A stretch of DNA of 64,000 bases from contig NZ_JALJFG010000012.1 of assembly GCF_023242475.1 (NCBI RefSeq), positions 62,001 to 126,000 of the forward strand, given 5' to 3'. Made by a program: the position numbers and the translations under genes. This DNA is from Pseudomonas sp. MWU15-20650. Its GTDB lineage: Bacteria; Pseudomonadota; Gammaproteobacteria; Pseudomonadales; Pseudomonadaceae. Each line of letters starts with the position of its first letter. Position 1 is the stretch's first letter. Below the pieces are notes generated by a model that was not told where the DNA came from, did no database searches, and saw nothing but the letters and a program-made list of their open reading frames with translations. This document shows, piece by piece, positions 55,954 through 63,763 of this stretch.

Positions 55954-56760
55954 ATGAGCGACTTCAACACCCTCGAACTGATCACCGACAGCCGTGGCTT
56001 TGCCACGCTGTGGCTGAGCCGTGAAGCCAAGAACAACGCGTTCAACGCCGAAATGATCCGCGAACTGATCATCGCCCTCGACCACGTGCAGGGCGACCCA
56101 TCCCTGCGCTTCCTGGTGCTGCGTGGGCGCGGCAAGCACTTCAGCGCCGGCGCCGACCTGGCCTGGATGCAACAGTCGGCCGAGCTGGATTATCACACCA
56201 ACCTGGACGACGCCCGCGAACTGGCGGAGCTGATGTACAACCTGGCCAAGTTGAAAATCCCCACCTTGGCGGTGGTACAAGGCGCGGCCTATGGGGGCGC
56301 ACTGGGGTTGATCAGTTGCTGCGACATGGCCATCGGCGCCGATGACGCGCAGTTCTGCCTGTCGGAAGTACGCATCGGCCTGGCACCTGCCGTGATCAGC
56401 CCGTTCGTGGTAAAGGCCATCGGCGAACGCGCAGCCCGTCGCTATGCCCTGACGGCCGAACGGTTTGGTGGCCAACAGGCGCAGGATATTGGCTTGCTGG
56501 CGCAGAGTTATCCGCTCGAGACCCTGGATCAACAGGTGGAGCAGTGGATCTCCAATCTGCTGCAAAACAGCCCGGCGGCGATGCGCGCCAGTAAGGACTT
56601 ATTGCGCGAAGTGGGTAACGGCGCCCTCACCCCTGCGTTGCGGCGTTATTGCGAAAACGCCATCGCCCGCATTCGCGTGAGTGCCGAAGGCCAGGAAGGC
56701 TTGCGAGCATTCCTGCAAAAACGGGCCCCGAGCTGGCAAGCACAGGAGCCGCGTCCATGA
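55954..56760 (+). CDS. liuC: 3-Methylglutaconyl-CoA hydratase
   Basis: 268 residues from ATG at 55954 (MSDFNTLELITDSRG), preceded by GGAG at about 9 bases; an ATG at 55939 abutting the liuB stop has no ribosome site of its own. Crotonase fold: GRGKHFSAGADLAWMQQSA (oxyanion loop) and AAYGGALGLISCCDMAIGADDAQFCLSEVRIGLAPAVISPFV. It hydrates 3-methylglutaconyl-CoA to HMG-CoA, the substrate of LiuE. It overlaps liuD by 4 bp. Confidence 0.94.
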   Translation: MSDFNTLELITDSRGFATLWLSREAKNNAFNAEMIRELIIALDHVQGDPSLRFLVLRGRGKHFSAGADLAWMQQSAELDYHTNLDDARELAELMYNLAKLKIPTLAVVQGAAYGGALGLISCCDMAIGADDAQFCLSEVRIGLAPAVISPFVVKAIGERAARRYALTAERFGGQQAQDIGLLAQSYPLETLDQQVEQWISNLLQNSPAAMRASKDLLREVGNGALTPALRRYCENAIARIRVSAEGQEGLRAFLQKRAPSWQAQEPRP

Positions 56761-58682
56761 GCACACTGACCACCGTGCTGGTGGCCAACCGTGGTGAAAT
56801 TGCCTGCCGTGTCATGCGCACCGCCAAGGCCATGGGGTTGACCACCGTTGCCGTACACAGCGCCATCGACCGTGACGCCCGGCACAGCCGTGAGGCCGAT
56901 ATCCGCGTCGACCTGGGTGGCAGCAAAGCGACCGACAGTTACCTGCAAATCGACAAACTGATCGCGGCCGCCCACGCCAGCGGCGCCCAGGCGATTCACC
57001 CCGGCTACGGGTTCCTCTCGGAAAACGCAGGCTTTGCCCGCGCCATCGAGGCGGCGGGCTTGATCTTCCTTGGGCCGCCCGCTTCGGCGATCGACGCCAT
57101 GGGCAGCAAGTCGGCGGCCAAGGCGTTGATGGAAACCGCCGGTGTGCCGCTGGTGCCGGGTTATCACGGCGAGGCCCAGGACCTGGAGACGTTCCGGGCG
57201 GCGTGCGAGCGTATCGGCTACCCGGTACTGCTCAAAGCCACGGCGGGGGGCGGCGGCAAGGGCATGAAAGTGGTCGAGGACGTCAGCCAATTGGCTGAAG
57301 CCCTGGCGTCTGCCCAGCGTGAGGCGCTGTCGTCCTTCGGTAATGGGCAGATGCTGGTGGAGAAATACCTGCTCAAGCCGCGTCACGTCGAGATCCAGGT
57401 GTTTGCCGATCAACAGGGCAACTGCCTGTACCTCAATGAGCGTGATTGCTCGATCCAGCGTCGCCACCAAAAGGTCGTGGAAGAAGCACCGGCGCCGGGC
57501 TTGAGTGTTGAGCAGCGCAACGCCATGGGCGAGGCGGCAGTGCGGGCTGCGCAGGCGATCGGCTATGTGGGCGCGGGTACGGTGGAATTCCTGCTGGATG
57601 CGCGCGGCGAGTTTTTCTTCATGGAGATGAACACACGGTTGCAAGTAGAGCATCCCGTGACCGAGGCGATTACCGGTCTCGACCTGGTGGCCTGGCAGAT
57701 CCGTGTCGCTTTGGGAGAAGCACTGCCGATGACGCAGGCGCAGGTGCCCTTGATCGGTCATGCCATTGAAGTGCGCTTGTATGCCGAAGACCCGGCCAAC
57801 GATTTCCTGCCCGCCACCGGACACCTGGCGTTGTACCGCGAGTCCCGCCCAGGCCCGGGGCGCCGCGTGGACAGCGGCGTCGAACAAGGGGACAACGTCT
57901 CGCCCTTCTACGACCCGATGCTCGGCAAGTTGATTGCCTGGGGCGAAGACCGTGAACAGGCACGGTTGCGCTTACTGAGCATGCTCGATGAGTTTGCGGT
58001 CGGGGGGCTCAAGACCAACCTGGGCTTCTTGCGGCGCATCATCGGTCATCCCGCGTTTGCGGCGGCCGAACTGGATACCGGGTTTATCCCGCGCTATCAA
58101 GATGAACTGCTGCCGGTGCCCGGCGCGTTGAGCGATGAGTTCTGGCAAGCAGCAGGTGCGGCGTTTATACAGAGTATGCCCGCGGGCGACGGGCCATGGG
58201 CGGATACCCGCGGCTTTCGCGCGGGGTTGCCTGCCGAGGTCTCGCTGCACCTGAGCTGCGACGGGCAGGCTCGATGGGTGGGGCTGACGGGGGATACGCC
58301 GCTGTTGCGCGGCGAGCACCTGTTGATCGAGCATCAAGGCGTACGCCACGCCCATCTGGCCGTGCGCAGCAATGGCATCCTGTATCTGCGCTGGGACGGT
58401 GAAATGCACGCGGTCAGCCTGTTCGACCCGATTGCGGCCGTCGAGACCAGCCAGTCCCATCAAGGTGGCCTCACGGCACCGATGAACGGCAGCATTGTGC
58501 GGGTATTGGTGGAGGTTGGCCAAACCGTCGAAGCCGGCACCCAGCTGGTGGTGCTGGAAGCGATGAAGATGGAACACAGCATCCGCGCCCCCCAGGCCGG
58601 GGTGGTCAAAGCGCTGTTCTGCCAGGAAGGTGAAATGGTTGTTGAGGGCAGCCCGCTGGTAGCACTCGAAACGACGGACTAG
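56757..58682 (+). CDS. liuD: Methylcrotonyl-CoA carboxylase alpha subunit (biotin carboxylase/carrier)
   Basis: 641 residues from ATG at 56757 overlapping the liuC stop. N-terminal biotin carboxylase (VLVANRGEIACRVMRTAKAMG, ATP-grasp KATAGGGGKGMKVV, YLLKPRHVEIQVFADQQGNC, MNTRLQVEHPVTE) and C-terminal biotin carrier domain with biotinyl Lys604 (VLEAMKMEHS). It carboxylates its biotin with bicarbonate and ATP for LiuB. Its stop overlaps the end of the convergent repressor gene by 4 bp, with no terminator between. Confidence 0.96.
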   Translation: MSTLTTVLVANRGEIACRVMRTAKAMGLTTVAVHSAIDRDARHSREADIRVDLGGSKATDSYLQIDKLIAAAHASGAQAIHPGYGFLSENAGFARAIEAAGLIFLGPPASAIDAMGSKSAAKALMETAGVPLVPGYHGEAQDLETFRAACERIGYPVLLKATAGGGGKGMKVVEDVSQLAEALASAQREALSSFGNGQMLVEKYLLKPRHVEIQVFADQQGNCLYLNERDCSIQRRHQKVVEEAPAPGLSVEQRNAMGEAAVRAAQAIGYVGAGTVEFLLDARGEFFFMEMNTRLQVEHPVTEAITGLDLVAWQIRVALGEALPMTQAQVPLIGHAIEVRLYAEDPANDFLPATGHLALYRESRPGPGRRVDSGVEQGDNVSPFYDPMLGKLIAWGEDREQARLRLLSMLDEFAVGGLKTNLGFLRRIIGHPAFAAAELDTGFIPRYQDELLPVPGALSDEFWQAAGAAFIQSMPAGDGPWADTRGFRAGLPAEVSLHLSCDGQARWVGLTGDTPLLRGEHLLIEHQGVRHAHLAVRSNGILYLRWDGEMHAVSLFDPIAAVETSQSHQGGLTAPMNGSIVRVLVEVGQTVEAGTQLVVLEAMKMEHSIRAPQAGVVKALFCQEGEMVVEGSPLVALETTD

Positions 58683-59314
58683 AACTTGGCCGTGGCTTGC
58701 ACGACGACCCCCAGGATTCGGTAATCGTCGGTGAACAGCAGCTTGGGGTAAGTGGGATTGAGCGGCACGAGGTAGCACTGGCCGCTTTCTTCCTGTAACT
58801 GCCGAAACATGGCCTGGGGGCTGTCGGCGCGCTGGGCAACGACCAACTTGCCGGGTTCGGCGTCGATGGCCGGGTCCACCAGGATCAACATGCCGGTGCC
58901 GATGCTCAGGCCGGTGGGAGCGGTCATGGCGTCTCCCGTCACAGGAAGCCAGAACGCCTCGCCCCGGGCGTGATAGTCCGTCAGCTCGAAACGCGCGGGC
59001 CCATAATGCGCCCGCGCTTCGCGTAGCTCACAGACGGCTTTCCAATCACTGACCGGGTAGCGGAAATAGGGATTGTAGTGTGTTTCCAACACCGGCTTTT
59101 CCGAGGCCCTTTCGCGAATCTCCAGCGCAACCTCCAGGTACCCCAGCCCCAGTTCCGCCAGCACCCGGTTCATATCCGCCAGGCTCGGTACACGGCGCTT
59201 GTTGAGCCAATGGCCCACACCGCCCTGGGACATGCCCAGGCGCTCCGCCAGTGCATCTTGCGTGACCTTGCGGTCTTTCATGTTGGCTCTGACCAACGCT
59301 ATCCAGTTATCCAT
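58679..59314 (-). CDS. LexA/CI-like repressor with degenerate S24 protease domain
   Basis: 211 residues from ATG at 59314 (MDNWIALVRANMKDRK). XRE-type HTH at about 17-55 (VTQDALAERLGMSQGGVGHWLNKRRVPS) and a C-terminal S24/LexA fold (about 120-205). The catalytic Ser of the usual V-S/T-G-D-S-M motif is Ala129 (PVTGDAMTAP) and the usual Lys of the F-K-K-L region is Arg171 (AMFRQL), so self-cleavage should be lost. No Ala-Gly or Cys-Gly cleavage site stands out in the linker. Two matching palindromes lie upstream (59325-59339 and 59384-59398), suggesting it still binds DNA and controls itself and the divergent DUF6124 gene. Confidence 0.88.
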   Translation of the reverse strand: MDNWIALVRANMKDRKVTQDALAERLGMSQGGVGHWLNKRRVPSLADMNRVLAELGLGYLEVALEIRERASEKPVLETHYNPYFRYPVSDWKAVCELREARAHYGPARFELTDYHARGEAFWLPVTGDAMTAPTGLSIGTGMLILVDPAIDAEPGKLVVAQRADSPQAMFRQLQEESGQCYLVPLNPTYPKLLFTDDYRILGVVVQATAKF

Positions 59315-59324
59315 GGCGCCTGAC

Positions 59325-59339
59325 AATACGGTGCGTATT
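59325..59339. promoter_or_regulatory. Candidate repressor operator 1
   Basis: AATACG-GTG-CGTATT, perfect 6-bp arms, ending 11 bp upstream of the repressor ATG. Confidence 0.6.
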
Positions 59340-59383
59340 TTTCAGGGCAATAAACAGTTTGTAGTAATCCATAAAACGACATA

Positions 59384-59398
59384 AATACGATACGTACT
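59384..59398. promoter_or_regulatory. Candidate repressor operator 2
   Basis: AATACG-ATA-CGTACT, the same dyad with one mismatch, 59 bp from operator 1 and about 48 bp before the divergent DUF6124 gene. Confidence 0.55.
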
Positions 59399-59445
59399 AT
59401 CATCGAACATAAGGTTTTCGACACCCACCCAGAGTACCGCCCCTT

Positions 59446-59796
59446 ATGACGACGAGTCCGTATCTACTGCCCGAAACACTTGCACACGATGAGTTACGCA
59501 GCATGCGCAACAGCGACGCCGCCCAACGCGCGCTGGACTATTACTTGAAAGAAGATATGTCGGCTTCAGCCTCGGATGAGGCGTTATTCGCGATCAAGCC
59601 AGGCATCAGCCAGGAAGAGGCCCTGGTACATGCCTCTGACCTGCTGCGCAGCGCAGCAGCCACCGCTTATGAGTCGGCCTGCCGCCATCAAGGCAACCAG
59701 CGGGACTTGGCGTTTTCAGTGGTGTATTTGATCGATATGGCTAAAGCGATGGTGGAGCGGACGCTGCAAGTGCCAGAAGCTCAAGCGCGCGCCTAA
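59446..59796 (+). CDS. DUF6124-family protein (Pseudomonas-specific, unknown function)
   Basis: 116 residues. I recognise the pattern of the small Pseudomonas family I know as DUF6124: AQRALDYYLKED near the N terminus, then DEALFAIKPGISQEEALVHASDLLRSAAATAYESACRH and a C-terminal helix VVYLIDMAKAMVERTL. It is all-alpha, with no signal or membrane helix. It is divergent from the S24-like repressor and has a copy of the repressor dyad before it. A truncated relative is at 15718-15915. The function of the family is unknown to me. Confidence 0.75.
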   Translation: MTTSPYLLPETLAHDELRSMRNSDAAQRALDYYLKEDMSASASDEALFAIKPGISQEEALVHASDLLRSAAATAYESACRHQGNQRDLAFSVVYLIDMAKAMVERTLQVPEAQARA

Positions 59797-59839
59797 CAGG
59801 CACGCAGGAAAAATATTTCTATCCCACGGATAAAAACAT

Positions 59840-59868
59840 TTGACTTGCAAATGATAATGATTATTATT
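59840..59868 (+). promoter_or_regulatory. prrF promoter with Fur box
   Basis: TTGACT (59840-59845), 16-bp spacer and TATTAT (59862-59867). The spacer and -10 are covered by AATGATAATGATTATTATT (59850-59868), which fits the Fur box GATAATGATAATCATTATC well. It would be silenced by Fur-Fe and active in iron starvation. Confidence 0.85.
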
Positions 59869-59875
59869 GGGCTCA

Positions 59876-59988
59876 GCTGATCGCGAGATCAGTCGATAGA
59901 CCAAGGGACCTTAGGTCGGACTCTTGGAATATCTCCTCATCAGGCTAATCACGGTTTTTGACCCGGCTCTTTGGCCGGGTCTTTTTTT
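59876..59988 (+). ncRNA. prrF: PrrF-type iron-responsive small RNA
   Basis: A transcript of about 113 nt is predicted from the Fur-controlled promoter. A 5' hairpin CTGATC-GCGA-GATCAG is followed by the stretch CTCCTCATCAGGCTAATCAC, which I recognise as the conserved target-pairing core of PrrF (antisense to sodB and other iron-protein messages). The RNA ends in an intrinsic terminator. Only one copy is present here, whereas P. aeruginosa has two in tandem. A 63-codon frame beginning inside it is not a gene. Confidence 0.9.
59960..59988 (+). terminator. Intrinsic terminator of prrF
   Basis: GACCCGGC-N6-GCCGGGTC followed by seven Ts (59982-59988), a classical Rho-independent terminator. Confidence 0.93.
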
Positions 59989-60259
59989 GCCAGTCTTGCT
60001 GGCATGGCTTCAGGCTAATGAAGACTGTGTGTTGCTTGATGGCGCGCATGGTAGCAAAAGACCATCGTCAAAAGAAAGCCGAACGACCGCTCTAGCCCGG
60101 AACTTTGCGAATTAGCGCTTGAGAATCAATCTCATAGATTCTAAGCTGCTGATGCGTCAAGGATGACGCCCCCTCCCCGTGCAACAATTTTGCATCCAGA
60201 TTTTACCTGACGCCTGTGTAATATAGCCGCCACATCACTCATATTCAGGCAACCAGACT
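59989..60259. other. Intergenic region with a second Fur-box-like dyad
   Basis: 270 bp between prrF and the carboxypeptidase gene. TGAGAATCAATCTCA (60120-60134) has perfect TGAGA/TCTCA arms and resembles GAGAATC-type Fur boxes. No second PrrF core and no gene were found here, so the site may serve the carboxypeptidase gene or be a relic of a tandem prrF. Confidence 0.45.
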
Positions 60260-61411
60260 ATGACCGTGGCCTTGACTTCCATAAAGATCAGCACCGACTT
60301 CGACAGCGGCAACATCCAGGTTCTGGATGCCAGCGATGCCTATCAGTTACTGCTGGCAATCAAGCCAGATACCCGCAGCGAACACTTCCAGTGGTTTCAC
60401 TTCAAGGCCGAAGGCATGCACGTGGGACACACCCACACCTTTCGCCTGAGCAACGCTGGCCGCTCGTCTTACAAACATGCCTGGAGCGGCTACAACGCCG
60501 TGGCCTCCTACGACCATATCAACTGGTTCCGTGTGCCGACGCGTTTTGATGGCGAGATCCTGCATATCAGCCTCCAGTCACGAGAAAAACATGCCTGGGT
60601 TGCCTACTTCGAGCCCTACAGCCGTGAACGCCATGACTGGCTGATCGAGCAAGCCCTGAACCGTACCGGCGCACACCTGCTCGCCACCGGTAAAAGTGCT
60701 GAAGGCCGCGATATCCAACTGCTCCGCCTTGGCAAAGGTGGCGAAAGCCGCCGCAAAGTCTGGATCATCGCCCAGCAACACCCCGGCGAACACATGGCCG
60801 AATGGTTTATGGAAGGCGTCATCGAACGCCTGCAACAGGATGGCGATGCCGAACTGAAAAAACTGCTGGCCGTCGCCGACTTGTACCTGGTGCCGAACAT
60901 GAACCCTGACGGTGCCTTCCACGACCACCTGCGCACCAACGCCATGGGCCAGGACCTCAATCGCGCCTGGCAAAGCGCCAGCCAGGAAATCAGCCCGGAA
61001 GTGCTGTTCGTCCAGCAGCAGATGGAAAAATACGGCGTCGACCTGTTCCTCGACATCCACGGCGACGAGGAAATCCCCTACATCTTCACGGCTGGCTGCG
61101 AGGGTAACCCGGGGTATACCCCACGCATCGAAGCCCTGGAAAAACACTTCCGTAGCCACCTGAGCGCCCTGACCCGGGACTTCCAGACCACCCACGGCTA
61201 CACCCGCGACCTGCCAGGCCAAGCCAATATGACCTTGGCCTGCAACGCCGTCGGCGAGAAATACGACTGCCTGTCCCTGACCCTGGAAATGCCCTTCAAG
61301 GACAACGACGACGCCCCCAACCCGAAAACCGGTTGGTCCGGTGAACGCTCGAAGCAGCTGGGCAAGGATGTGCTGAGCACCGTGGCGGATATTGTCACCA
61401 CGTTGCGCTGA
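60260..61411 (+). CDS. M14 zinc carboxypeptidase, cytosolic carboxypeptidase (CCP) type
   Basis: 383 residues without signal peptide. An N-terminal beta-sandwich domain (about 1-125, FQWFHFKAEGMHVGHTHTFRL) is characteristic of CCP/AGBL-like proteins. Catalytic domain: zinc ligands His174 and Glu177 (QQHPGEHMAEWFMEG) and His267 (LDIHGDEEIP), substrate Asn-Arg pair in NMNPDGAFHDHLRTN...DLNR, and general base Glu343 (LTLEMPF). Bacterial homologues exist in Pseudomonas and Burkholderia; their natural substrate is not known to me. It stands alone, downstream of prrF. Confidence 0.9.
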   Translation: MTVALTSIKISTDFDSGNIQVLDASDAYQLLLAIKPDTRSEHFQWFHFKAEGMHVGHTHTFRLSNAGRSSYKHAWSGYNAVASYDHINWFRVPTRFDGEILHISLQSREKHAWVAYFEPYSRERHDWLIEQALNRTGAHLLATGKSAEGRDIQLLRLGKGGESRRKVWIIAQQHPGEHMAEWFMEGVIERLQQDGDAELKKLLAVADLYLVPNMNPDGAFHDHLRTNAMGQDLNRAWQSASQEISPEVLFVQQQMEKYGVDLFLDIHGDEEIPYIFTAGCEGNPGYTPRIEALEKHFRSHLSALTRDFQTTHGYTRDLPGQANMTLACNAVGEKYDCLSLTLEMPFKDNDDAPNPKTGWSGERSKQLGKDVLSTVADIVTTLR

Positions 61412-61469
61412 CCGCCCTGTCCTCAATGCCCCTCAGTTAAGGGTGAACGCTGTAGCTGTGCCCCCGGCA

Positions 61470-62009
61470 TCAGTCCTTGGTGCCGGTCATGCTTTGCAGC
61501 ACACCGTCACGCCGGATCAAACCGTGAAACAGCGCCGCCGCCAAGTGCAACAACACCGTCAGGAACAACAGGTAGGCAAGGTAGCCATGGGCCTTGCGCA
61601 ATAACGCAAACAACGGCGCGTTGGCCCCCACCAGCGCAGGCAGTTGCACGGAACGGCTGAGCATCACTGGATCGCCGGCAGCCGAAATCATCGCCCAGCC
61701 CAACAGCGGCAACACCAGCATCAAGGCGTACAGCAGAACATGGGACGCCTTGGCCGCCAGTACCTGCCATACAGGCAAATCCGCCGGCAACGGCGGCTGC
61801 CGTGTTGAAAAGCGCACCACTAACCGCACGACTACCAGGGCCAGAATCGCAATCCCCAGCGGCTTGTGCAGGTGAATCAGCCATTCATGACGTTCCGACA
61901 CCGACGCCGCCATGCCGGCACCGATAAACAACATGGCGATGATCATCAACGCCATCAGCCAATGCAACAGGCGCGCCAGAGGCGCGAAAAACCGTGGTTG
62001 AACATTCAT
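61470..62009 (-). CDS. Cytochrome b561
   Basis: 179 residues with four membrane helices. Haem-ligand histidines appear in LARLLHWLMAL (helix 1), HLHKPLGIAILAL (helix 2), ASHVLLYALMLVLPLLGW (helix 3) and KAHGYLAYLLFLTVLLHLAAALFHGLI (helix 4), the YodB/CybB pattern. It is an inner-membrane di-haem electron carrier. Its ATG overlaps the catalase-like gene stop by 4 bp, so it probably supplies electrons to that protein or works in the same stress response. Confidence 0.92.
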   Translation of the reverse strand: MNVQPRFFAPLARLLHWLMALMIIAMLFIGAGMAASVSERHEWLIHLHKPLGIAILALVVVRLVVRFSTRQPPLPADLPVWQVLAAKASHVLLYALMLVLPLLGWAMISAAGDPVMLSRSVQLPALVGANAPLFALLRKAHGYLAYLLFLTVLLHLAAALFHGLIRRDGVLQSMTGTKD

Positions 62010-63088
62010 GGCTTCGACTCCTGAGGGGCACTGTGCAATGGGCTGACTTCACCGGCGCGGCGCAGGTACGAACTGGCGTAGGCGGCCGAGCGTGCGGCCA
62101 ACAGGGGATCGTTTGAGGCTTCGATACCGCTCGGCAAAATCAGCGGGTCAAAGTTGATATCGCGACAATCGCCGTCCGCTTGCGGCTGGCTGCTTTGCAG
62201 CACCAGGGTGCCGGCGTTCAGCACCTTGTGCTCACCTGCCCAGGTTTTGCTTGCGTCATCCAAGGGGTCGCCGGGGTTGGCCAGGGTCATGTTCAATTGC
62301 CAACGCAACGGCCCGGCAGCCAGGCGCTGCACCAGGTCTTTTTCCAGGAAGTCGCTGCCCGACGGCGTGGTGTCACCCGCTGCGTCCCGGCTTTGCGGCA
62401 CCACGCCCCAACGCACCGCCTGGCGTTTGCCATCGGCGCTCACCAGATAAAACGCGTTGATGCCGTTATAGGTTTCAGTCGCATAACTGGCCGAAGGTTT
62501 GGCAGTCTTGACCCACGCCAGGAACGGCGCTGTCTCTGGGTGCGCGGCAAAGAACGCCGGCATGCTCGCCGGGTTCGGCTTGCCGGTGGCCGGGTCTGGC
62601 GCCCCGGCCTTGAGCATCTGGTAAAACGCCTCCGGCGTGCCCACCGGGAACACCGGCATGCTGTTCATCCCGGTACGCCACTGCTGGCCATTGGCCTGGC
62701 TGAATTGCAGCGCGAAACTGCGAATCGGCACGCTGCTGTCCGGCGCATAGGGGTTGCCGCTGGGCAAGGCAAACCGCCCGATAAACGGGGTTTTCGCCTC
62801 GCTGAACACTTGGGCACTGGAGTACGCGCGCGCATCAGGGCTGCTTTGGAAATAACCGGCCACGCACACGCCCTTGGCGTGGTTACGGCGCAACCCCGGG
62901 TGCAGGCCGTTATTGGTTTCCAAAGCATTCACCAGGGTCTTAGGCCGCAAGCGCTGCGGGTCGAGAGTGCCGTTGACGTAGGCAAACGCCCCGGCTACGA
63001 CAGCAACCACGACACCGATACCGGCGAGCCGTGCGATCAGGCTCGCTGTGCTCAACGCAGGACGGGGCGGTGATGAGTGATCTACCAT
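62006..63088 (-). CDS. Catalase-family (SrpA-like) haem peroxidase
   Basis: 360 residues from ATG at 63088 (MVDHSSPPRPALSTAS), preceded by GGAG at a suitable distance; a longer in-frame start to 63127 is not needed. One N-terminal membrane helix (about 17-40, LIARLAGIGVVVAVVAGAFAYV) precedes a minimal catalase core. LRRNHAKGVCVAGYFQSS carries the distal His of the R-x-H-A-K-G motif, and VPIRSFALQFSQANGQQWRTGMNSMPVFPV follows. It is probably periplasmic and membrane-anchored. Its promoter matches that of the divergent ECF sigma factor gene. Confidence 0.88.
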   Translation of the reverse strand: MVDHSSPPRPALSTASLIARLAGIGVVVAVVAGAFAYVNGTLDPQRLRPKTLVNALETNNGLHPGLRRNHAKGVCVAGYFQSSPDARAYSSAQVFSEAKTPFIGRFALPSGNPYAPDSSVPIRSFALQFSQANGQQWRTGMNSMPVFPVGTPEAFYQMLKAGAPDPATGKPNPASMPAFFAAHPETAPFLAWVKTAKPSASYATETYNGINAFYLVSADGKRQAVRWGVVPQSRDAAGDTTPSGSDFLEKDLVQRLAAGPLRWQLNMTLANPGDPLDDASKTWAGEHKVLNAGTLVLQSSQPQADGDCRDINFDPLILPSGIEASNDPLLAARSAAYASSYLRRAGEVSPLHSAPQESKP

Positions 63089-63142
63089 GACGTAACTCCA
63101 AGGCCAGCGGCCGAAGCGGTGAAACATAAGGTCGGAGCATTA

Positions 63143-63168
63143 AGACGAACGCCGATCGGCCCTATTCC
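63143..63168 (-). promoter_or_regulatory. ECF-type promoter of the catalase-cytochrome b561 operon
   Basis: On the minus strand GGAAT (63164-63168), 16 bp, CGTCT (63143-63147). This fits the GGAA-N16/17-CGTC layout of ECF-sigma promoters and equals the promoter facing the other way at 63198. Confidence 0.75.
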
Positions 63169-63197
63169 CTTCCGCTATGTTTATTTTTCGGTGCTGG

Positions 63198-63223
63198 GAA
63201 TAACCTTCAATGCCGGACGTCTC
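63198..63223 (+). promoter_or_regulatory. ECF-type promoter of the sigma factor gene
   Basis: GGAAT (63198-63202), 16 bp, CGTCT (63219-63223), followed after about 33 bp by the ATG of the sigma gene. The same hexamers and spacing on both sides of the gap indicate that the sigma factor activates itself and the divergent operon. Confidence 0.75.
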
Positions 63224-63256
63224 TCTAGTCCCAGCGTAGTGACCCGCCAGCCAACC

Positions 63257-63763
63257 ATGCACGAACTCGACGAACAGTTACGTGAACTCATCCCCAGGAT
63301 GCGACGCTTTGCCGTATCCCTGACGCGTAACACCAGCAGCGCCGACGACCTGGTGCAGGCGGCCCTTGAACGTGCAATCAAGCGCTGGGCCGACAAACGC
63401 ATCGAAGGCGATCTGCGTGCCTGGCTGTTCTCGATCCTCTACCGGCAGTTCCTCGATGCCCACCGCCGCAGCCGCCGCTATGCGCGCATGCTCGACTTCT
63501 TCACCGGCCGCGATGACGTGCAGCCTTCGGTAGAACGCACGGTGATGGCCCAGTCAGCCCTGCAAGCGTTCGACCAGCTCAATGCCGAACAGCGCGCCCT
63601 GCTGCTCTGGGTGTCCGTCGAAGGCTTAAGCTACAAGGAAGTGGCCGAGATCCTCGATGTGCCGGTCGGCACCGTGATGTCGCGGTTGTCGCGCGCACGT
63701 CAGGCCCTGCGTCAACTCAGCGACGGTGAAATAGCCAACCCTGCCCTGCGGATACTCAAATGA
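63257..63763 (+). CDS. ECF-family RNA polymerase sigma factor
   Basis: 168 residues from ATG at 63257 (MHELDEQLRELIPRMRRFA); an extended frame to 63077 runs across the promoter region and is rejected. Region 2: SADDLVQAALERAIKRWADKR and RAWLFSILYRQFLDAHRR; region 4: LNAEQRALLLWVSVEGLSYKEVAEILDVPVGTVMSRLSRARQAL. It overlaps the anti-sigma gene by 4 bp. It likely responds to an oxidative or envelope stress, given the divergent catalase/cytochrome b561 operon. Confidence 0.93.
   Translation: MHELDEQLRELIPRMRRFAVSLTRNTSSADDLVQAALERAIKRWADKRIEGDLRAWLFSILYRQFLDAHRRSRRYARMLDFFTGRDDVQPSVERTVMAQSALQAFDQLNAEQRALLLWVSVEGLSYKEVAEILDVPVGTVMSRLSRARQALRQLSDGEIANPALRILK

Follow-up and report, generated by a model that had tools for sequence, protein, structure and literature searches.

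A CI-type repressor of Pseudomonas that appears to have lost self-cleavage and to control a neighbouring DUF6124 gene

INTRODUCTION

Repressors of the S24 (LexA/CI) type are usually taken to be DNA-damage switches because they cut themselves. How, then, should a member be read that keeps the fold and has exchanged the residues that do the cutting? This question is raised by a gene in the 64,000-nucleotide stretch of Pseudomonas sp. MWU15-20650 DNA analysed here (the window). The gene encodes a CI-like repressor of 211 amino acids on the minus strand (58679-59314), with its ATG start codon at 59314 and its stop codon at 58681-58679. The initial annotation, which had placed the gene correctly, proposed that Ala129 and Arg171 replace the catalytic pair and that the protein should be unable to cleave itself after DNA damage. 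Here we examine the protein, its relatives across Pseudomonas, its operator-like palindromes and the divergently encoded DUF6124 protein.

RESULTS AND DISCUSSION

An S24 fold without the S24 catalytic residues

The repressor contains both domains of the S24 autopeptidase-repressors. The Pfam models HTH_3 and Peptidase_S24 match residues 9-57 and 108-205, respectively, each above its curated cut-off, with a linker at residues 65-112 and the S24-fold domain extending to residue 211; no NCBIfam model matched the protein over a cut-off. Its best relative in the PDB by sequence, as judged with phmmer, is lambda CI. In the predicted structure (mean pLDDT 71) the helix-turn-helix (HTH) domain is confident, the linker falls below a pLDDT of 50, and the S24 domain matches the C-terminal domain of lambda CI with a Z score of 17.0 and an rmsd of 1.1 over 95 residues at 40% identity. 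Around Ala129 the pLDDT averages 73 (residues 121-130) and 64 (residues 131-140), and therefore the fine geometry of the active site is not readable from the model.

The phmmer alignment with lambda CI confirms both replacements that had been proposed from the letters of the gene. Ala129, within the motif G-D-A-M (codon GCC, 58928-58930, minus strand), aligns with the Ser of lambda CI ‘GNSMTAPTG’, and Arg171 (codon CGG, 58802-58804, minus strand) aligns with the first Lys of ‘FKKL’. We take this Lys to be the catalytic Lys192 in lambda numbering, in keeping with the K192A constructs among the lambda CI matches in the PDB. An alignment of the repressor family agrees on both columns, and it places Val94-Cys95 (59030-59035, minus strand) where the Ser/Lys relatives carry the Ala-Gly cleavage pair. 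As published, the S24 signature comprises the Ser-Lys pair together with Ala-Gly (PMC8565304; PMC13148647). The Ser nucleophile, the catalytic Lys and the Ala-Gly pair are all missing from the repressor, and by sequence it is therefore an S24-fold repressor and not an S24 peptidase.

Loss of the dyad is the trait of a family under purifying selection

A search of 149 genomes of the genus found a match to the repressor in 120 genomes and none in the other 29. From the stronger of the matches listed, 130 loci were fetched and 132 sequences (rows) were aligned; the split gene of L070 does not enter any of the family counts, and the comparison of Arg with Lys rows excludes L123 and L130. Division of the alignment by residue 171 yields an Arg group of 107 rows, representing 104 loci and at least 103 of the 149 genomes. 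All 107 rows carry Arg171, whereas residue 129 is Ala in 79, Ser in 23, Thr in three and Leu in two, and the Ala-Gly pair is left in only three. Lys171 and Ala-Gly occur together in all 23 Ser/Lys rows, and residue 176 shifts from Asp in every one of these 23 to Glu in 98 of the 107 Arg-group rows. Among the best 80 of 118 named relatives, a set that overlaps the Arg group, as contigs of equal length in both indicate, and is titled Pseudomonas throughout, Arg171 is found in all 80, residue 129 is Ala in 70 and Ser in 10, and Ala-Gly occurs in none. The alignment across Pseudomonas that the initial annotation had called for thus reveals the replacements as a family trait and not a one-off. Full-length matches of at least 60% identity were found solely within the genus Pseudomonas when 293 genomes across the order were searched.

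In a FastTree phylogeny of the 132 rows, a branch with a support of 98 separates the Arg-group rows from all others, and the stray Arg row L123 is placed outside the group. Residue 171 changes twice on this tree and the Ser/not-Ser state of residue 129 changes ten times, counts that include the two stray rows outside the Arg group; because the latter changes so often, the nucleophile looks unselected. The simplest history would be a single Lys-to-Arg change on the stem followed by drift of the nucleophile and the scissile bond, its direction being taken from the active relatives because the tree is unrooted. By contrast with drifting residue 129, the invariance of Arg171, together with the shift at residue 176, suggests that this residue has retained a function.

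Beyond the Arg group, 21 of 24 order-level loci examined outside the genus are Ser/Lys, and the others are Ala/Arg (L279), Val/Arg (L297) and Ser/Arg (L300). Within the genus, the family alignment reads Met/Arg in L123 and Leu/Lys in L130. Judged from these alignments, the dyad has been lost more than once. The Ala/Arg repressor of L279 (L279:1186-1908), from another family of the order, represents an independent loss; an integrase-like frame lies downstream of its gene, which may belong to a mobile element. In a separate variation on the family theme, L083, L085 and L086 carry a tandem pair of repressor genes beside liuD, one copy being Ser/Arg and the other Ala/Arg.

The initial annotation had also raised the concern that a Ser and a Lys at nearby positions might complete the dyad. 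Across residues 80-211 of the 79 Ala/Arg rows, we found by sequence no relocated Ser/Lys dyad, and the former active site has acquired no Ser that is fixed in these rows. Three residues have been widely gained, namely Ser89 (71% of Ala/Arg rows), which sits in the linker, Ser134 (58% of Ala/Arg rows versus 30%), where the MWU15-20650 protein has Thr, and Lys191 (84% of Ala/Arg rows versus none of the 23 Ser/Lys rows). By sequence, none of them completes a dyad in the MWU15-20650 protein.

With nucleophile, general base and scissile bond all gone, the MWU15-20650 repressor is very likely unable to cleave itself, and on this point the initial annotation is well supported. The alternative that DNA damage still leads to its cleavage, either by itself or in trans by a different S24 protein, could draw on the S24 fold, predicted to be intact, and on the Ser129 of 23 of the 107 orthologues. 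We consider it very unlikely, given that the MWU15-20650 protein itself has neither catalytic residue and no Ala-Gly bond, and that two S24 proteins with a Ser-to-Ala change, LexA S125A (PMC13114513) and IrvR S224A (PMC7101444), are described as resistant to cleavage. The engineered non-cleavable forms LexA S119A, LexA S125A and IrvR S224A/K260A are changed at the same catalytic residues as the repressor, whose replacements, by contrast, arose in nature and occur across a set of species. A Lys-to-Arg LexA continues to cleave slowly at high pH, and for this reason the Ser/Arg orthologues (23 of 107 rows) may not be fully dead as peptidases. Neither K156R nor KR156 was found among the matches listed in the literature on LexA Lys-to-Arg changes. 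A literature search that covered S24 repressors without catalytic residues, LexA Lys-to-Arg changes and liuD-linked regulators found no description of this repressor family among the matches listed.

Measured against ten members of the named set of 80, the gene has a dN/dS of 0.074-0.147, and the median over 1017 pairs in the named set is 0.165 (range 0.011-0.386). In the HTH domain, Gln30 and Trp36 are invariant over the 107 rows, and Gly31, Gly34 and His35 are nearly so. As estimated from these comparisons, the gene is under purifying selection and encodes a selected protein, not a remnant. A decaying prophage remnant without function would be compatible with the phage-type ancestry and with the L070 orthologue, which is split over two frames by a frameshift or a sequencing error. 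Against such decay stand the low dN/dS values, the nearly invariant HTH residues and the conservation of the locus and its palindromes, and we regard it as extremely improbable. That a conserved and selected family has parted with its nucleophile, its base and its scissile bond suggests that in a repressor the S24 fold can persist after the chemistry is gone, and it warns that domain hits alone should not label such genes as SOS regulators.

A two-gene unit with conserved palindromes

The repressor gene is flanked by a biotin carboxylase gene (methylcrotonyl-CoA carboxylase alpha, liuD-like; 56649-58682, plus strand), whose 3ʹ end overlaps that of the convergent repressor gene by 4 bp. On the other side, a divergent gene (59446-59796, plus strand) encodes a DUF6124 protein of 116 amino acids that is predicted to be helical and is a putative target or partner of the repressor. 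A gene for an M14 carboxypeptidase follows (60260-61411, plus strand). We treat liuD and the carboxypeptidase gene as synteny markers only. Within the fetched stretches, liuD is found for 104 and DUF6124 for 106 of the 107 Arg-group rows, and each is found for none of the 25 other rows; the carboxypeptidase gene is present in 81 of the 107 Arg-group rows, many of the rest being shortened stretches. DUF6124 is divergent from the repressor at all 80 named loci (the best 80 of 118 relatives). Farther along the window, cytochrome b561-like and catalase-like genes adjoin a divergent gene for an ECF-type sigma factor (61470-63763).

The absence of the pair was evaluated in 20 of the 29 match-less genomes by inspecting flanks of 1.5 kb around liuD. 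All 20 genomes carry a liuD homologue, and in 19 neither the repressor nor DUF6124 lies within 1.5 kb of it. The remaining genome (L240) retains 45 amino acids of DUF6124, lying about 20 bp beyond liuD, a remainder that would be expected from a single deletion running through the two genes. Since none of the 20 has an intact DUF6124 gene by liuD, the repressor and DUF6124 are present or absent together where examined.

The proximity of liuD, a leucine-degradation gene abutted by the repressor gene, bears on whether the former active-site cleft with Arg171 might bind a small anionic metabolite that alters DNA binding. Ligand gating of this kind would also suit an Arg171 that is constant in 107 of 107 rows as residue 129 drifts, and the Asp-to-Glu shift at residue 176. 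However, liuD is convergent to the repressor and shares no operon with it, and Arg171 may be structural; the ‘FKKL’ region of lambda CI is near a dimer-dimer contact. We know of no case of ligand binding by an S24 domain and consider such gating unlikely.

The intergenic region (59315-59445) contains two operator-like palindromes, 59 bp apart. The near site O1 (AATACG-GTG-CGTATT, 59325-59339) lies just before the repressor ATG, and the far site O2 (AATACG-ATA-CGTACT, 59384-59398) sits in the spacer of a predicted sigma-70-like promoter directed toward DUF6124 (ACGACA-16-TATCAT, 59376-59403, plus strand). This promoter is a consensus match only, at 9 of 12 positions; the region contains one such match versus a mean of 0.2 in shuffles of the region. 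Of 106 distinct Arg-group upstream regions, 80 match the pattern ARTAC-N5-GTAYT at all 10 fixed positions (0.08 expected from shuffles) and 98 match it at nine or more (1.8 expected), figures whose strength the shuffles overstate because the consensus derives partly from the same sequences and because these share ancestry. A palindrome of nine or more positions is absent from eight of the 106 regions. By the same threshold, the far site is kept in 92 and the near site in 35 of the 107 Arg-group rows. Conserved palindromes in a divergent intergenic region are the arrangement of an autoregulated phage-type repressor with a divergent target, and this locus appears to share it.

Elsewhere the pattern is unremarkable. 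With one mismatch allowed, the window contains two palindrome hits, a count reached in 31 of 100 shuffles. The MWU15-20650 genome contains 10 sites of the pattern, fewer than the 18 of the reversed control; an earlier, looser pattern (two mismatches at most) gave 100 genome sites versus 106 in its control. The eight genome sites outside the repressor locus all fall within open frames of at least 213 codons, which are not proof of genes. A genome-wide regulon was rejected on these grounds, and the lack of enrichment together with the placement of the eight sites leads to a predicted regulon of the repressor locus alone. Among the 13 DUF6124 loci of MWU15-20650 (L146-L158), only that of the repressor (L153) has a palindrome matching at 10 of 10 positions; another, L146, has one that scores nine. 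Control by LexA was set aside as well, since no LexA-box-like site (CTGT-N8-ACAG, at most one mismatch) is present within 56861-61555. The repressor appears to guard a single neighbouring gene, DUF6124, in many Pseudomonas genomes, and it would give one DUF6124 gene a regulator of its own in a family that reaches 41 matches in a single genome of the genus.

Sequence comparison and structure prediction together support the joint absence of the two genes in the genomes examined, the conserved locus and palindromes, the S24 fold and the purifying selection. Beside these features, we think it likely that the protein is a domesticated CI repressor without self-cleavage that represses DUF6124 through the palindromes, and probably also represses itself. 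The S24 domain would now serve as an oligomerisation module devoid of peptidase activity, and the repressor would bind the ARTAC-N5-GTAYT palindromes of the divergent promoter region, with O2 serving to repress DUF6124 and O1 probably serving for autorepression. RecA-stimulated self-cleavage could not remove such a repressor, and we infer, as the initial annotation did, that it no longer responds to DNA damage. Most likely it would act as an autoregulated repressor that holds expression at a set level; any relief would come from a protein partner, which is plausible, or from turnover of the repressor itself.

Phage and pyocin relatives

Among phage records, the top match is a Pseudomonas aeruginosa phage protein, 46% identical over its full length, that keeps the Ser, the Lys and the Ala-Gly pair, all three of which the repressor has lost. 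Repressors of the lambda CI and P22 C2 type have the HTH and the S24 fold in common with it, whereas the repressor is without Ser, Lys and Ala-Gly and is encoded chromosomally, beside liuD. Further relatives are the PrtR-type repressors of L082, L091 and L094, which are 42-43% identical to the repressor and share its palindrome pattern, at -82/-83. They differ in having Ser/Lys/Ala-Gly and an adjacent PrtN gene, neither of which the repressor has. When the 130 family loci were searched for PrtN, only these three gave matches; no linked prtN activator was found at the repressor locus, where the neighbours are liuD, DUF6124 and the M14 carboxypeptidase gene. The two trees disagree on the sister group of the Arg group, since FastTree places L082, L091 and L094 next to it, whereas a quick mixture-model tree of 49 rows, including order-level and phage rows, places them with phage repressors.

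The shared palindrome pattern of the PrtN-linked loci could point to a superrepressor acting at the operators of a cleavable PrtR and keeping a tailocin silent during the SOS response. However, the PrtR-like protein of MWU15-20650 (L263) has a different HTH and no blastp match to the repressor in its own frame at an E value of 1, and the other eight genomic pattern sites are inside long open frames. We consider such a superrepressor highly improbable. The comparisons as a whole favour a domesticated CI repressor of phage or pyocin type without self-cleavage, in which the S24 fold is kept and its catalytic features are lost.

Another parallel is offered by GfoR and GtgR of the Gifsy prophages (PMC3121763). 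These proteins are not inactivated by self-cleavage, as is very likely true of the repressor; they are governed by antirepressors, and the linked small DUF6124 protein would be a candidate partner here. They differ in length (136 to about 150 amino acids) and in being without a C-terminal domain, whereas the MWU15-20650 repressor keeps the full S24 fold. With its C-terminal S24 domain present, it is not a short form of the Gifsy type.

DUF6124 and the relief of repression

DUF6124 is a large and strongly expanded paralogous family. The MWU15-20650 genome has 13 matches, of which 12 exceed the cut-off; ten other genomes of the genus have between 4 and 41 each, and 14 control genomes have none. 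The predicted DUF6124 structure had no Foldseek match in the PDB at an E value of 0.001 or better, and the sole paper found on DUF6124/DUF3077 concerns furfural tolerance and gives no function. In ten genomes, with 150 of the 213 DUF6124 matches listed, 7 of 64 S24 hits have DUF6124 within 3 kb, and all seven neighbours listed are the liuD-linked pair. A general partnership between S24 proteins and DUF6124 is thus not supported among the matches listed. A DUF6124 HMM built here found one weak frame (L125, E value 0.0017) in the loci of the rows outside the Arg group.

These data bear on whether DUF6124, or another small protein, acts as an antirepressor by binding the dead S24 domain and freeing the DNA. 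Such a switch would add a derepression step to the repressor model favoured above without contradicting it, and is in line with the close linkage of the two genes and with a DUF6124 protein predicted to be small and helical. Precedent by analogy comes from a report in which Gifsy antirepressors remove the non-cleavable Gifsy repressors (PMC3121763). The divergent placement of a DUF6124 gene and prtR in the Q8r1-96 tailocin, and the presence of a below-cut-off DUF6124-like gene near an S24 gene on C14 of MWU15-20650, would also fit. On the other side are the size of the paralogous family (4 to 41 matches per genome), the restriction of S24 neighbours to the liuD-linked pair, the single weak frame outside the Arg group and the lack of a PDB match at the stated threshold. 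We regard an antirepressor role as possible, if doubtful. Still more tentatively, the repressor might typify a natural class of pseudopeptidase CI proteins, in which, after a single ancestral Lys-to-Arg change, the S24 domain was reused to sense a protein or a metabolite as its receptor, producing an SOS-blind switch for one copy of the expanded DUF6124 family that is inherited and lost across Pseudomonas as a two-gene unit.

Apart from the liuD-linked pair, DUF6124-like genes occur in two other settings. The Q8r1-96 tailocin (EU982300; L302:52-405 and L302:906-1709), the only record of the phage collection matched at an E value of 0.01, encodes a DUF6124-like protein of 37% identity divergently from prtR, whose product has no significant match to the repressor. 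On C14 of MWU15-20650, a DUF6124-like gene that scores below the cut-off (L265:864-1100) is convergent to an S24-type repressor gene (L265:1402-2175), and this pair lies near an inorganic pyrophosphatase-like gene.
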